Origin: a virus
Reading direction: 5' to 3' (one strand)
Virus record (IMG/VR): IMGVR_UViG_3300030389_000924
Location: 1 to 37,279 of that record
DNA: 37,279 bases
The translations under genes were made by a program, and so were the position numbers. The notes under the pieces were generated by a model. That model had not been told where the DNA came from. It saw nothing but the letters and a program-made list of their open reading frames with translations, and did not search any database. Below, one piece after another: positions 10,468 through 27,662 of this stretch. Numbering within the stretch: position 1 is the stretch's first letter; every line of letters starts with the position of its first letter.

Positions 10468-10824
10468 ATGGCAACTGAAAGAACCGCAGACATAATTCTT
10501 GGTGCGTTCCAAGACGAAATGGTCACAAGACGTAAGTTTGATTTAAAAAACTCTCAAGGTAAATTAATTACTTCTATCTATTTTAAACCTATAACAAGAT
10601 ATGCAAGAGTTAAAGCACAACAATTAGCTGGCCCTAATGCTGATGCTTTAGTTGTATCAACACAGCTTTTGTGTCAAATGGCAGAAAAAGAAGACGGAAC
10701 TCCAGCTTTTGATATGTCTGATGCACCGATACTGCAAAGACAACTTCCAGAAAAAGTATTAAATGATTTAGAGCTTTTCTTAAACGACATCAAGCTTGAT
10801 ATTGATACAGCAAAAAAAGAATAA
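10468..10824 (+). CDS. Tail assembly chaperone, short form (lambda gpG-like)
   Basis: A 118-residue protein lying between tube and tape measure, the invariant location of gpG-type chaperones. It begins ATERTADIILGAFQDEMVTR, contains a tube-like strand region (QGKLITSIYFKPITRYARVK) and ends DIKLDIDTAKKE. The last lysine codons sit in a seven-A slippery run (10812-10818), so some ribosomes would shift and make the longer form described separately. It would keep the tape measure soluble and recruit tube subunits. The start lacks a Shine-Dalgarno and follows CATTTATTT. Confidence 0.85.
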   Translation: MATERTADIILGAFQDEMVTRRKFDLKNSQGKLITSIYFKPITRYARVKAQQLAGPNADALVVSTQLLCQMAEKEDGTPAFDMSDAPILQRQLPEKVLNDLELFLNDIKLDIDTAKKE

Positions 10825-11000
10825 AAGGGGATAGCTGGTTTAGATTTGAGTTTTTCCTAGCAACAGAACTTGGTAAGACAGTACAAGAACTCAGAATGAA
10901 TATGACTGAGGCAGAGCTTATTTATTGGGCTGGATACTATGAAGTAAAAACAGAAGAAGAAAAAAGAGCATTGCAACGACAAAAACGCAATTCAAGGTAA
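10468..11000 (+). CDS. Tail assembly chaperone, -1 frameshift fusion (lambda gpGT-like)
   Basis: A -1 shift at A AAA AAA (10812-10818) lets ribosomes bypass the TAA at 10822 and read on to the TAA at 10998, giving about 177 residues. The added domain reads GDSWFRFEFFLATELGKTVQ, ELRMNMTEAELIYWAGYY, which is the characteristic T domain of lambda-type GT fusions (aromatic start, TELGKTVxEL, WAGYYE). The T part has no start of its own in a sensible position. In lambda the T extension is needed to bring tube subunits to the tape measure. The frameshift is inferred from sequence but is a well-established property of this gene pair. Confidence 0.85.
10812..10818 (+). promoter_or_regulatory. Programmed -1 ribosomal frameshift site, tail chaperone
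   Basis: Seven consecutive A residues arranged as A AAA AAA in the frame of the upstream gene, followed by GAA TAA. Both lysyl-tRNAs can re-pair one base back. The shifted frame continues without a stop for 60 codons into the T domain. Confidence 0.8.
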
Positions 11001-11025: not shown

Positions 11026-12954
11026 GTGGCAGAAGCAGTTGTTAGATTAAGAGTTGATGCCAGCGGTGCGACTAAGGCTTTAAATGGTGTCCAACAAAAA
11101 ACTAACGCATTACAGAAATCATTTGGTGGGCTTAGAACTGCAATAGCTGGTCTTGGTATAACAGTAGTTGCTAGGCAAGCGGTAAACGCATCAGCTACTT
11201 TTGATAAATTAAAAATACGATTAGGATTGCTTACAAAAGAAAGCGGATCGTTTGCAAAATCTCTACAGATTGCCAAAGATGCCCAGAAAGCTTTTGGTTT
11301 GAGTACGATTGAAGCTTTAGAAGGCGTTACAGATATTACAGCAAGACTAGCTCCATTAAAAGTTGGCGTTGATGACATTAGAACTGTATTCTTTGGATTT
11401 AATACAGCCGCAAAACTGGCTGGTGCTTCAGCTATAGAATCATCAAACGCATTTAGGCAACTAGCACAGGCTCTTGGCTCAGGAAGGCTGGCTGGTGATG
11501 AATTTAGAAGTATCTCGGAACAAGTACCAACTGTTCTTGCTCCTATTGCTGCTGAACTTGGAGTAACTATAGGAGAGCTTAAAAAATTAGCTGCTGAAGG
11601 TGAATTGACAAGTGATGTTGTTTTAAGGGCTTTGAGCAGAGTAGGAAAAGAGGGCAGCGGGTTCTTGGAAGAATTATTAAAAAATGATCCAACACAAATA
11701 TTTAAAAACTTTCAAAATGCTACACAGGATCTGTCGATTGCTCTTGGTTCTGAACTTAGACCAGCAGTTGAAGGTGTTACAAAATTATTGACTGATTTAA
11801 TAAATGGAATTCTAGAATTTGTTGAAACAGATGCTGGACAAGCTGCAATTCTAATAACAAAAATTGCTGTAGCTGTTAAATTATTAGGCGTTGCTATACC
11901 TATTGCAACAGCCGCATTTAAAGGTCTTTTGATTTCTGTTAATGCAGTTGGTGTTCAAAGTCTTATCACCTCTGGAGGTCTTACTGCATTACAAGCGTCT
12001 GCACTGTTGGCCGCTGGTGGTATAGGAAAGACAACTCTTGCTCTTGGAGCATTAAAAATAGCTATGGCAACAACTGGAATAGGTTTGCTTGTTGTTGGTG
12101 TTGGAGCTTTGGCAACTGCATTCATGAAAGCTAGAAGAAAAGCAAAAGAGTTTCAAGACTTAATAAATGAAGGACAAGCAGAAGATGTAAAAGAAGCTTT
12201 TAGGGAAAATGCAAAACTTATAGGTGAGTTAGAAACAAAACTAGAAAAAGCAAGAGGAAATGCAAAAAGAGGTATTCAAAGACAAATTGAAGAGGCAGAA
12301 GCACAAGGTAGAATGTTAGAGGGAAGATTACAAACTCTTGAGTCTGAAAGAAAAATAACTGAAGTTAAGAAAGAACAAAATGTAGAAAATAAAAATGCAG
12401 AAGTATCCTTAAAAAATCAACAAACAGAAACAGAAAAACTAAAAGAAAAAATGACTGCTGTAGGTGAAGAGATCGAAAGCAGTATTAAAAATAATTTAAG
12501 AGATGCTATAACTGGAGCAAAATCATTTGGTGAAGCAATGGCAGGGGTTCTTAATAAGATAAGAGATAAAATTATAGATGCTCAGTTAGATAAGTTATTA
12601 GGTAATTTTGGTGAAAACTTTGGTAAGGGTAAAAGCGGTGGTAAAGGTTTTGGAGGATTTCTTGGTGGCATTCTTGGAGGACTATTTGCAAATGGTGGTC
12701 AACCACCTGTTAATAAAATTTCAGTCGTAGGCGAGAGAGGCCCTGAACTTTTTGTTCCTCGTTCTGCTGGTACTGTTATTCCTAATAGTGATATTGGTGG
12801 TTCTTCTATTACAAATAATATTAGTATTAGTGTAGATGCCTCTGGTTCATCTGTACAAAGTGATGGTGATGGTCAGCAGTTTGGTGAAGCTCTTGCAACT
12901 GCAATACAGTTAGAAATTGTAAAACAAAAACGAAGTGGAGGTTTACTTACATAA
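11026..12954 (+). CDS. Tail tape measure protein
   Basis: A 642-residue protein that sets tail length and is ejected with the DNA. It starts at GTG 11026 after TTTTTTTTATTT. The N-terminal 60-250 region has the standard tape-measure domain (RLGLLTKESGSFAKSLQIAK, SSNAFRQLAQALGSGRLAGD, EFRSISEQVPTVLAPIAAEL). Hydrophobic helices occupy about residues 275-370 (ILITKIAVAVKLLGVAIPIA, GIGLLVVGVGALATAF). A coiled coil follows, and the end is the usual NGGQPPVNKISVVGERGPEL FVPRSAG motif. At roughly 1.5 angstroms per residue the tail would be near 95 nm; that is an estimate. No peptidase insert is seen. Confidence 0.92.
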   Translation: MAEAVVRLRVDASGATKALNGVQQKTNALQKSFGGLRTAIAGLGITVVARQAVNASATFDKLKIRLGLLTKESGSFAKSLQIAKDAQKAFGLSTIEALEGVTDITARLAPLKVGVDDIRTVFFGFNTAAKLAGASAIESSNAFRQLAQALGSGRLAGDEFRSISEQVPTVLAPIAAELGVTIGELKKLAAEGELTSDVVLRALSRVGKEGSGFLEELLKNDPTQIFKNFQNATQDLSIALGSELRPAVEGVTKLLTDLINGILEFVETDAGQAAILITKIAVAVKLLGVAIPIATAAFKGLLISVNAVGVQSLITSGGLTALQASALLAAGGIGKTTLALGALKIAMATTGIGLLVVGVGALATAFMKARRKAKEFQDLINEGQAEDVKEAFRENAKLIGELETKLEKARGNAKRGIQRQIEEAEAQGRMLEGRLQTLESERKITEVKKEQNVENKNAEVSLKNQQTETEKLKEKMTAVGEEIESSIKNNLRDAITGAKSFGEAMAGVLNKIRDKIIDAQLDKLLGNFGENFGKGKSGGKGFGGFLGGILGGLFANGGQPPVNKISVVGERGPELFVPRSAGTVIPNSDIGGSSITNNISISVDASGSSVQSDGDGQQFGEALATAIQLEIVKQKRSGGLLT

Positions 12955-24405: not shown

Positions 24406-24843
24406 ATGAACTACGCAATTATTGATGGCACAACTGTAAAAAACACTGGTACGATCCAGCAGTTATTTCCCAATACAAGTTTTACTAACGCTGGGCCTAA
24501 CGCAGATTTTCTAACTGCAAATAATGTTGTTGAACTTGTAGAAACTCTTAGCTATACAACACCAACGCAAAAATTATCTACTGTAGATGCTTATGTTGAA
24601 AGTGGTAAAGCTTATAATGTAAAAGTAGAAAGTACAACAGCAGATGAACAGACTGAATTAATAAATCAAAAATGGAACGAAATAAGGAATACAAGAAATA
24701 TTTTATTACAAGATACAGATTGGAGAGCCAGTAGCGATCTTACCTTGTCAGATGCTTGGAAGACTTATAGAAATGAACTTAGACAAATCCCACAAACACA
24801 AACAGATCCATATAATATTACTTGGCCTACAGAACCTAGCTAA
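24406..24843 (+). CDS. Phage tail fibre assembly / chaperone-like protein
   Basis: A 145-residue protein whose C-terminal third carries the signature of the phage tail-assembly-chaperone-like family found beside fibre genes: WNEIRNTRNILLQDTDWRAS, then DAWKTYRNELRQIPQTQTDP and WPTEPS. The N-terminal part (NYAIIDGTTVKNTGTIQQLF) is typical too. Members help fold or attach fibres. It closes the structural module. The 37-base gap before it is almost pure A/T and has no Shine-Dalgarno. Confidence 0.75.
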   Translation: MNYAIIDGTTVKNTGTIQQLFPNTSFTNAGPNADFLTANNVVELVETLSYTTPTQKLSTVDAYVESGKAYNVKVESTTADEQTELINQKWNEIRNTRNILLQDTDWRASSDLTLSDAWKTYRNELRQIPQTQTDPYNITWPTEPS

Positions 24844-24886: not shown

Positions 24887-25057
24887 ATGGCTCGTAAAAC
24901 AGACGCAGAACTACAGCAACGTTTACAAGAATTAAAAAATAATCAAGAACAAGCTGTTCAGGTTGCTAATAACTGTCGTGATGAAATCATGCGTATTGAA
25001 GCTGTATTAATAGATAGATCAGAGGCAACAACCGAAAAAAAGTCTTCTGCGAAATAA
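24887..25057 (+). CDS. Coiled-coil small protein, zero-frame product (56 aa)
   Basis: A 56-residue protein: ARKTDAELQQRLQELKNNQE, QAVQVANNCRDEIMRIEAVL, then a polar tail ending KKSSAK. It is predicted to be one long coiled-coil helix. Start follows the CAGTATTTATTT leader shared with other genes here. Its final codons contain A AAA AAG, a classical -1 slippery heptamer, and the -1 frame continues into a four-cysteine zinc finger (next entry). I know no family for the short form. Confidence 0.65.
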   Translation: MARKTDAELQQRLQELKNNQEQAVQVANNCRDEIMRIEAVLIDRSEATTEKKSSAK

Positions 25058-25170
25058 TAGAAAAGCAGTGTAAATGCTGCGGCAAAGTGTTTGCCACAAC
25101 AGAACAAAGAAGAAAGTATTGCTCTAACGCTTGTAAAACAAGGTTTTATCGCAGAAAGCTTGCTACTTAG
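24887..25170 (+). CDS. Probable -1 frameshift fusion: coiled coil plus C4 zinc finger (about 94 aa)
   Basis: The -1 frame entered at 25036-25042 runs to the TAG at 25168 and reads VFCEIIEKQCKCCGKVFATT, EQRRKYCSNACKTRFYRRKL. Four cysteines (CxxC, 13 residues, CxxxC if the K-C-K-C-C-G first pair is used) form a short zinc finger of a type common in phages and bacteria. This frame has no ATG, GTG or TTG between its last upstream stop (25015-25017) and the first cysteines, so independent initiation is unlikely. The zero-frame gene contains A AAA AAG exactly inside the permitted 40-base window. The fusion would join a coiled-coil dimeriser to a nucleic-acid-binding finger. Frameshifting is inferred. 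Confidence 0.6.
25036..25042 (+). promoter_or_regulatory. Candidate programmed -1 frameshift site A AAA AAG
   Basis: Zero frame reads GAA AAA AAG TCT TCT GCG AAA TAA. A slip of one base back gives AAA AAA GTC TTC TGC, which opens the zinc-finger frame. A weak hairpin (GCAGT/GCTGC) starts about 22 bases downstream, rather far for a stimulator. A AAA AAG is the strongest bacterial -1 slippery heptamer known. Confidence 0.6.
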
Positions 25171-25238
25171 TTTCGGTGGTCATTTGCCTTGTCATTAAGC
25201 CCATAGTGACGTATAAAGGTGACAGCGTTAAGATAAGA

Positions 25239-25523
25239 ATGAGTACAAGCACACTCGTAACTGAAAGTGCTTTAATTATTGCAAATTTAATCATGTTTCA
25301 AAAGATCGCTAATGTTTTAAGTATTGTCTCTTTCCTTATGGTAGCCTCCATGAGTGCAGGGGCATTCATTACTTACCGTTTTGTTACGTCTGAACAATTT
25401 AAAAGCCGAGTTCTTAATCAGATACTTTCTGAAGTCAGTGGATCTATGGGCAAAGTTTTAGATAAACAACTTCCAAAATCAACAGGTATATCTGTTCCAA
25501 TAAATTCATTACCTAAATTTTAA
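25239..25523 (+). CDS. Small single-pass membrane protein
   Basis: A small protein with one clear membrane helix (KIANVLSIVSFLMVASMSAG AFITYRFV) followed by a helical cytoplasmic or periplasmic part (EQFKSRVLNQILSEVSGSMG). The start is uncertain. ATG 25239 gives 94 residues; ATG 25293 gives 76 and places MFQKIANVLSIVSF at the N-terminus, which matches homologs as I remember them from marine cyanophage-like genomes. A GTG at 25176 is less likely. It heads a run of three membrane-protein genes between the tail module and the terminator. Holin-like behaviour is possible but not shown. Confidence 0.6.
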   Translation: MSTSTLVTESALIIANLIMFQKIANVLSIVSFLMVASMSAGAFITYRFVTSEQFKSRVLNQILSEVSGSMGKVLDKQLPKSTGISVPINSLPKF

Positions 25524-26860: not shown

Positions 26861-26886
26861 ATAAGTCAATGTGGGCTTATTTTTTT
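26861..26886 (+). terminator. Rho-independent terminator of the late operon
   Basis: A seven-base-pair stem (ATAAGTC / GGCTTAT, one G-T pair) with loop AATGTG is followed directly by six Ts. It ends rightward transcription of the structural and membrane-protein genes. It overlaps the last codons of the leftward gene at 26877. Confidence 0.8.
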
Positions 26887-27662
26887 GTCTTTAATTCGTG
26901 TGTATGTGGTATAACTTGACCCATCTTTTCAGTAACTATGACATCTTCACATATCTTGTGATAAATACTAGATTTTGCATATTGAATACCAGCAATTTTT
27001 AATTCACCGCAGTTTTTCAACCTTGCCAACTCATAATCTAACTTTTTGTTATTAAGTATTTGATTTTGTATTTTTTCTTGTGTTGTAGCTGATCTTAAAC
27101 AAGCATCTTGATAAGCAGAACCTAAAGGTATAGAAAACGTAGCTGCAATACCAAAATTAATTCCAAGACTGTCTTTATTAGCTGAATAGTTTTCTTGGTG
27201 ATAAAGTATTTCTCCAGCATTAGTTAAATTACCATTCTCATCCATTGCCATGTTGTACACTGGCGTTGTGTAGCGTAGATCTTGAGGTCGTTTCTGATTA
27301 TAAGTTGTAGTTACAAAAGGAGAAATAGTAAGCATTGAGTTTTGGCAAACTATACCACCACCAAACTGTGATTCAATAAGATTTCCCTGTAACACTTGTA
27401 CAGCCTGATTAGAAACTGACGAGCTAGATTGAGCTACGGGAGCTGCTGTACTTGAATTATTTGCTAAAACTGGCTGACCAAAAAGACTTGCTATTGCGAG
27501 AACACTGTAGTAGTTTCTGTGACGCTTTCGCTTGTGATTTGCCTTGTTAGATCTGTTATTCGACTTACTGAAGGCTGTTTGTAAACCTCTGTAAATTGAA
27601 AACTTTGTCCATTTTTCTGTAAACTCCAGTTCGGGCGTGTGTTTAGATCTATTTGTTTCCAT
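26877..27662 (-). CDS. Secreted protein of the leftward envelope cassette; start unclear
   Basis: The mature part is clear: a signal peptide KRKRHRNYYSVLAIASLFGQ PVLA, then SSVSNQAVQVLQGNLIESQF, GGGIVCQNSMLTISPFVTTT, SLGINFGIAATFSIPL and a Cys-containing helical end finishing VIPHTHELKTKK. The only ordinary start, ATG 27662, lies 172 bases inside the neighbouring gene and would add about 50 odd, basic residues before the signal peptide. No ATG, GTG or TTG occurs between it and the signal sequence. Either that long overlap is used, a rare start operates, or a frame change from the upstream gene joins the two. I know similar proteins from cyanophage-like genomes, function unknown. Confidence 0.65.
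   Translation of the reverse strand: METNRSKHTPELEFTEKWTKFSIYRGLQTAFSKSNNRSNKANHKRKRHRNYYSVLAIASLFGQPVLANNSSTAAPVAQSSSSVSNQAVQVLQGNLIESQFGGGIVCQNSMLTISPFVTTTYNQKRPQDLRYTTPVYNMAMDENGNLTNAGEILYHQENYSANKDSLGINFGIAATFSIPLGSAYQDACLRSATTQEKIQNQILNNKKLDYELARLKNCGELKIAGIQYAKSSIYHKICEDVIVTEKMGQVIPHTHELKTKK

Follow-up and report, generated by a model that had tools for sequence, protein, structure and literature searches.

Confirmed programmed frameshifts in tailed phages lie mostly in the tail chaperones and in capsid or tail proteins. The shift in Escherichia coli dnaX gives the shorter of two products and is also stimulated by a stem-loop. The tail assembly chaperone genes G/GT use a -1 shift in the phage late operon to make an N-terminal protein and a minor extended form of it. 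The dnaX products tau and gamma share an N-terminus and arise on the slippery heptamer A_AAA_AAG with an upstream internal Shine-Dalgarno (SD) stimulator (PMC5009743), and this heptamer is among the most efficient -1 motifs in E. coli (PMC4066793). SD stimulators of -1 shifts are spaced 9-14 nt upstream of the shift site (review PMC5009743). They are common in shifts of the IS3 family (PMC5009743, PMC4066793), where orfA/orfAB yields a short protein in the zero frame and, by slipping on A_AAA_AAG or A_AAA_AAA, a longer -1 fusion. Mobile Ig-like domains are added by frameshifting to the C-termini of various phage proteins (PMC5009743 and references therein); these are Ig-like folds on virion proteins, reached by shifts of either sign.

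The 37,279-nt stretch of viral DNA analyzed here (the window) contains a gene for which dnaX/IS-type -1 frameshifting outside the tail chaperone is by far the best reading of the sequence. One mRNA would give a 56-aa coiled coil and a 94-aa coiled coil/zinc finger by a programmed -1 shift on A_AAA_AAG, with a probability of about 0.9. The gene shares with dnaX the heptamer, the upstream SD-like element and the common N-terminus, but the shifted product would be the longer one and a conserved stem-loop was not found. The order of products is that of the IS3 family, but there is no transposase, the extension is a finger of about 42 residues and the gene occupies a fixed locus in a phage late operon. 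Unlike G/GT, the pair does not lie between the major tail protein and the tape measure but behind the fibre and fibre-assembly genes, and the proteins are different. Unlike the Ig-like domains, the unit here adds a zinc finger to small coiled coils and keeps to a single heptamer class throughout.

A coiled-coil gene overlapped by a zinc-finger frame

The features of the locus in the window are as follows.

24406..24843, + strand: tail-fibre assembly gene, upstream neighbour (Phage_tail_APC, E = 1.1e-13; tail fibre assembly PHROGs)
24887..25057, + strand: zero-frame coiled-coil ORF, family F1 / phrog_20003, ATG to TAA 25055-25057, 56 aa
25018..25170, + strand: -1-frame open stretch with the zinc-finger extension, ending in TAG 25168-25170
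25021..25025, + strand: internal SD-like AGAGG, exactly 10 nt 5' of the heptamer
25036..25042, + strand: slippery heptamer A_AAA_AAG, codons GAA AAA AAG at 25034-25042, in the X_XXY_YYZ register of the zero frame
25069..25134, + strand: zinc-finger core C-x2-C-x13-C-x3-C in the -1 frame, Cys codons at 25069, 25078, 25120 and 25132
25290..25523, + strand: small protein, downstream neighbour, ATG at 25290 with a longer GTG start at 25176 possible (phrog_568, E = 7e-13)

Direct reading of the window bore out the initial annotation, which had described a coiled-coil ORF overlapping a startless zinc-finger -1 frame with A AAA AAG in register at 25036-25042. The distance from the heptamer to the zero-frame stop, given there as 13 bases, was counted as 12. 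The last -1-frame stop 5' of the overlap is the TAG at 25015-25017, and no ATG, GTG or TTG precedes the finger cysteines in the -1 frame, the first being a GTG within the finger. The -1 reading after the slip would be ...KK|VFCEIIEKQCKCCGKVFATTEQRRKYCSNACKTRFYRRKLAT with GTC 25042 as its first codon, and the 42 codons added would bring the fusion product to 94 aa.

The coiled-coil part matches the phrog_20003 profile with E = 1.6e-10 over 54/60 positions. The host is probably Prochlorococcus, because the window encodes a portal protein with 87.7% identity to the portal of Prochlorococcus phages MED4-117, MED4-184 and P-HS2. The product of 25290..25523 is predicted to have one membrane helix, judged by eye from the sequence. 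The 'plasmid stability' label of phrog_568 (window 25290-25523, and CPAG_00006 of MED4-184) looks wrong, since the protein reads as a small membrane protein with one helix, encoded in a cluster of late phage genes.

The frameshift counted as the first by the initial annotation is a likely tail chaperone G/GT pair at 10468-10999 on the + strand. Its zero-frame ORF ends GCA AAA AAA GAA TAA with A_AAA_AAA at 10812-10818, and the -1 continuation runs to about 10999, before a long gene at 11026.

Conservation of the heptamer among relatives

An IMG/VR scan with the fusion gave 78 loci, and further scans, with profiles of three finger groups and of two coiled coils (the present one and a second one), extended this set. 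Nearly all full-length loci from the fusion scan have the zero-frame stop at +169, the finger in the -1 frame and AAAAAAG at +150. With duplicates removed, IMG/VR and the window provided a set of 124 genes in which an ORF with an ATG precedes the finger, the finger is in the -1 frame of that ORF and no start of its own stands upstream of the overlap. An in-register A_AAA_AAR was present in the overlap of all 124 (A_AAA_AAG in 121, A_AAA_AAA in 3), and no relative with both frames had lost the heptamer. The finger frame is without any start codon before the cysteines in 121/124. This conservation, which had been named at the outset as a check to make, supports a programmed -1 shift that joins the coiled coil to the zinc finger. 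The 124 genes comprise 120 distinct protein pairs, which a rough count without gaps groups into 57 clusters at 85% identity; being related, the genes do not represent 124 separate events, and the counts are given without a significance value.

Coiled coils also exist without the finger, and 35 distinct ones were examined: 18 of family F1, including CPAG_00005 of the cultured Prochlorococcus phage MED4-184, and 17 of a second family, F2. The MED4-184 protein (phrog_20003) is a homologous coiled coil at the same locus, but there is no finger anywhere in that genome and no heptamer near the 3' end of the gene. In-register A_AAA_AAG was found in the last 60 nt of 0/35 finger-less genes and in-register A_AAA_AAA in 2/35 (L230, L446); L232 and L236 have A runs out of register only. 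Set against the 124/124 with the finger, these figures mean that the in-register site is no accident. In family F2 the heptamer is present in 54/54 unique genes with a finger versus 1/19 without.

Ten fingers have their own ATG (L070, L217, L219-L223, L319, L321 and L322), and none has an in-register heptamer in the overlap zone. All except L070 are at the same locus or on fibre-gene contigs. Because finger-less coiled coils lack A_AAA_AAG and own-ATG fingers lack the heptamer, the heptamer in these genes accompanies the -1 finger and not the coiled coil or the finger singly. A finger encoded alone with a normal start had been named as a finding that would speak against the shift. Ten such genes do exist, but without an overlapping coiled coil and heptamer. 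They indicate that the finger can exist singly and are no argument against the shift where both frames overlap. Since fingers with their own start exist, the shift is one route to a finger at this locus and not the sole route.

Several exceptional arrangements were seen. An in-frame fusion was found once (L003) versus 124 -1-frame genes; in L003:1771-1998 the coiled coil has lost a segment, which brings the finger into the reading frame of the ATG and gives 76 aa, and the gene is either real or an assembly chimaera. If real, it shows that a single-chain coiled coil-finger product can occur. L027:2618-2898 has the usual arrangement, but its coiled-coil frame meets a stop at codon 7; it is a pseudogene or an error. 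L323 (2466-3140) has a coiled-coil ORF and an own-ATG finger as separate genes with another gene between them, which may represent the unfused state of the pair. A same-type finger with an ATG of its own, L070:3553-3738, lies away from the fibre locus and follows a gene resembling the minus-strand gene 26877-27662 of the window.

The probable site of the slip and selection on the finger frame

The position of the stops confines the frame change. Many of the 124 genes have a -1 stop immediately 5' of the heptamer, and 58 have the zero-frame stop directly 3' of it. The overlap in L268 is exactly AAAAAAG, as [TGA]AAAAAAG[TAG], and therefore the frame change is possible only on the heptamer. In L118, L138, L139, L255 and L269 the slippery site lies about 6-9 nt further downstream, still in register, as 8-10 consecutive A just ahead of the zero-frame stop.

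Substitutions were counted by parsimony in 44 unique close relatives on a tree from which the heptamer and SD had been left out. Gene positions 150-158 form nine consecutive sites with zero changes, compared with means per third position elsewhere of 5.7 in the coiled coil and 6.0 in the finger and with 4-14 changes at the third positions of other conserved Lys codons. Part of this conservation could come from dual coding, since the G at 156 also opens the -1 Val codon; the A residues ahead of it are read in a single frame. The dN/dS in the same number of unique relatives was 0.089 for the finger (-1) frame versus about 0.37 for the coiled coil, and the remaining two frames contain stops across the finger. 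By this measure the finger frame is under strong purifying selection. The finger cysteines are invariant in group A2.

Candidate stimulatory elements

The strongest anti-SD pairing of the gene, across relatives, is at the AGAGG region. GAGG shows one parsimony change over its four sites in the 44 relatives, and the codon in this region is GAG in 43/44, whereas GAA outnumbers GAG elsewhere (204 vs 36). The 10-nt spacing in the window is inside the range for -1 stimulators. The SD-like motif was found in 95/124 genes, and because 29/124 are without a clear one the element would be helpful at most. A recoded null equalled the observed mean anti-SD energy in 16% of draws, and anti-SD energy alone is modest evidence. 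No consensus structure corresponding to a conserved downstream stem-loop or pseudoknot emerged among the relatives (window z-score -0.48). Downstream stimulatory structures are frequent in bacterial -1 shifts, not universal.

The finger unit follows different coiled coils at one locus

In L292 and many other cases the same locus is taken by the second coiled-coil family, F2 (MKEIIEKQILEWQQEIINQ...GG..AYQLLL...), whose genes have their own heptamer, mostly directly before TAG. Profile comparison by hhalign gave a probability of 0.1% for the F1 and F2 coiled coils, the profiles being shallow and a very remote relation possible, and of 99.4% for the F1 and F2 fingers, which are clearly homologous. 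The sequences thus support a unit of heptamer and finger frame that has become attached, at one and the same late-gene locus, to two or more coiled-coil families with no detectable homology to each other. In L208 (about 960-1290) the same A_AAA_AAG and -1 finger follow a third coiled coil (MLTARQKLAALESELQ...), which is only weakly similar to phrog_20003, and no clear SD is seen.

Synteny was assessed by tblastn. The downstream membrane gene (phrog_568) was present at 88/99 testable -1-finger loci, 11/12 loci with the coiled coil alone, 5/6 with the finger alone and 1/1 in-frame locus, and the tail-fibre assembly gene is the conserved upstream neighbour. In the loci collected, this site holds the coiled coil alone, the finger alone or both via the slip, and almost never an in-frame fusion. 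The carriers, ocean phages, are probably Prochlorococcus-type siphophages. A tblastn search of 50,697 phage records with the fusion, the coiled coil and the fingers found no true relatives; the matches were WhiB/HNH look-alikes with E near or above 0.01. A pattern search found no finger in Synechococcus phages KBS-S-2A and S-H1, which have the next closest portals. A GTDB genome scan with the finger returned one unrelated Lachnospiraceae locus and no host-genome unit at that sensitivity. In the cultured relatives examined, the annotation leaves the finger region without a gene.

The nature of the finger

The finger gave weak profile matches to HNH endonuclease fingers, NinG, DUF2116 (a probable treble clef), zf-FCS and YacG, and none above a curated cut-off. 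The zf-FCS (MYM-type) match was weak in five of ten members, with a best E of 0.02. The HNH, NinG and YacG fingers have a similar C-x2-C...C-x3-C spacing, but no nuclease domain is present here and the matches are below cut-off or statistically unsupported. A gyrase-inhibitor role by likeness to YacG was rejected: the best E was 0.027, and one member scored 14.0 bits versus the 25.5-bit cut-off of PF03884 / NF002362. The AlphaFold2 model of the in-frame L003 fusion is a long helix followed by a hairpin and two helices (mean pLDDT 80, pTM 0.37). Foldseek with this model gave no match at E below 1, with the YacG structure 4tma among the listed matches, and searches of solved structures gave short CxxC matches only. 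A short, basic finger of treble-clef type is a fair description. Such a basic finger may bind nucleic acid or a host protein.

Discussion

The preferred reading is a programmed -1 shift that makes two products. Most ribosomes would end at the TAA at 25055 and release the 56-aa coiled coil. Pairing of the internal AGAGG with 16S rRNA would hold back a fraction of ribosomes, which would slip one base back on A_AAA_AAG and add 42 codons. The resulting 94-aa protein, the minor form, would carry a C-terminal zinc finger of the treble-clef kind on the coiled coil. The arrangement, its conservation, selection on the -1 frame, the slip site and the modularity are supported by sequence evidence. The slip in the cell and its efficiency are inferred. 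The two products may stand in a fixed ratio, as the initial annotation proposed. By analogy with dnaX and IS3, both may enter a shared oligomer through the coiled coil, with the finger sub-stoichiometric.

The same modularity can be read as meaning that only the fusion matters. The finger would have been captured out of frame by recombination, the shift would be a mere expression route and the ratio would be irrelevant. Capture with the frameshift as expression route is the explanation given for the phage Ig-like domains (PMC5009743), and the modular exchange of coiled coils at this locus and the one in-frame version, L003, agree with it. This is unlikely here: there is 1 in-frame gene against 124 although a one-base indel would suffice, which suggests selection for both products, and the coiled coil also persists alone in relatives. 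Because in-frame versions are almost absent, the pattern suggests that both forms are needed; history could be an alternative cause.

RNA polymerase stuttering on the A run could produce mixed mRNAs and fuse the finger without a ribosomal shift. Transcriptional slippage of this kind has little chance of being the explanation. The run is 7 A in the window and in 79 of the 124 genes and 8-10 A in 10, but it is 6 A in 35, and a 6-A run is too short for efficient bacterial transcriptional slippage. Polymerase slippage needs no register, yet the register is kept in 124/124 genes, and in the finger-less L232 and L236 the A runs stand outside the register. Nor does polymerase slippage make use of an SD-like element placed at the distance typical of ribosomal shifts.

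Separate translation of the finger, with ribosomes re-initiating past the zero-frame stop or starting at a non-canonical codon, is a shade less probable still. Nine own-ATG finger genes at the same locus (L217, L219-L223, L319, L321 and L322) speak for it, but 121/124 of the -1 frames offer no ATG, GTG or TTG before the cysteines. The stand-alone fingers lack the heptamer, and separate translation would not explain its register. A homopolymer sequencing or assembly error or a decayed gene, as an A7 run in an uncultured virus record, the in-frame L003 and the stop at codon 7 in L027 might suggest, has a negligible probability and is refuted by a frame relation that recurs in 124 distinct genes across many metagenomes, with 6-A runs too, and by the finger dN/dS.

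A broader proposal builds on the programmed -1 shift, and the odds are somewhat against it. A mobile C-terminal recoding unit would make unrelated small coiled coils at one cyanophage late locus into two-product genes. It would be kept out of frame for a set subunit ratio in one oligomer and would serve a DNA-binding, host-takeover or virion task new to described phages.

A coiled coil-finger frameshift gene was not found in the open literature, subscription papers being outside the scope. The initial claim that no system of this kind had been described holds, apparently, for the pairing and not for the principle, since frameshift-appended C-terminal domains are already known in phages (PMC5009743). 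The gene, the module and its place appear to be new. This would be a conserved case of frameshifting in a gene of small size, and its carriers would be phages of a photosynthetic organism that ranks among the most abundant in the ocean. Because the finger has no start codon, ordinary gene callers would overlook it in new phages. Its spread over two apparently unrelated coiled coils offers a natural experiment on the gain, movement and out-of-frame maintenance of a recoded module, and with in-frame versions nearly absent the importance of the ratio is directly testable.
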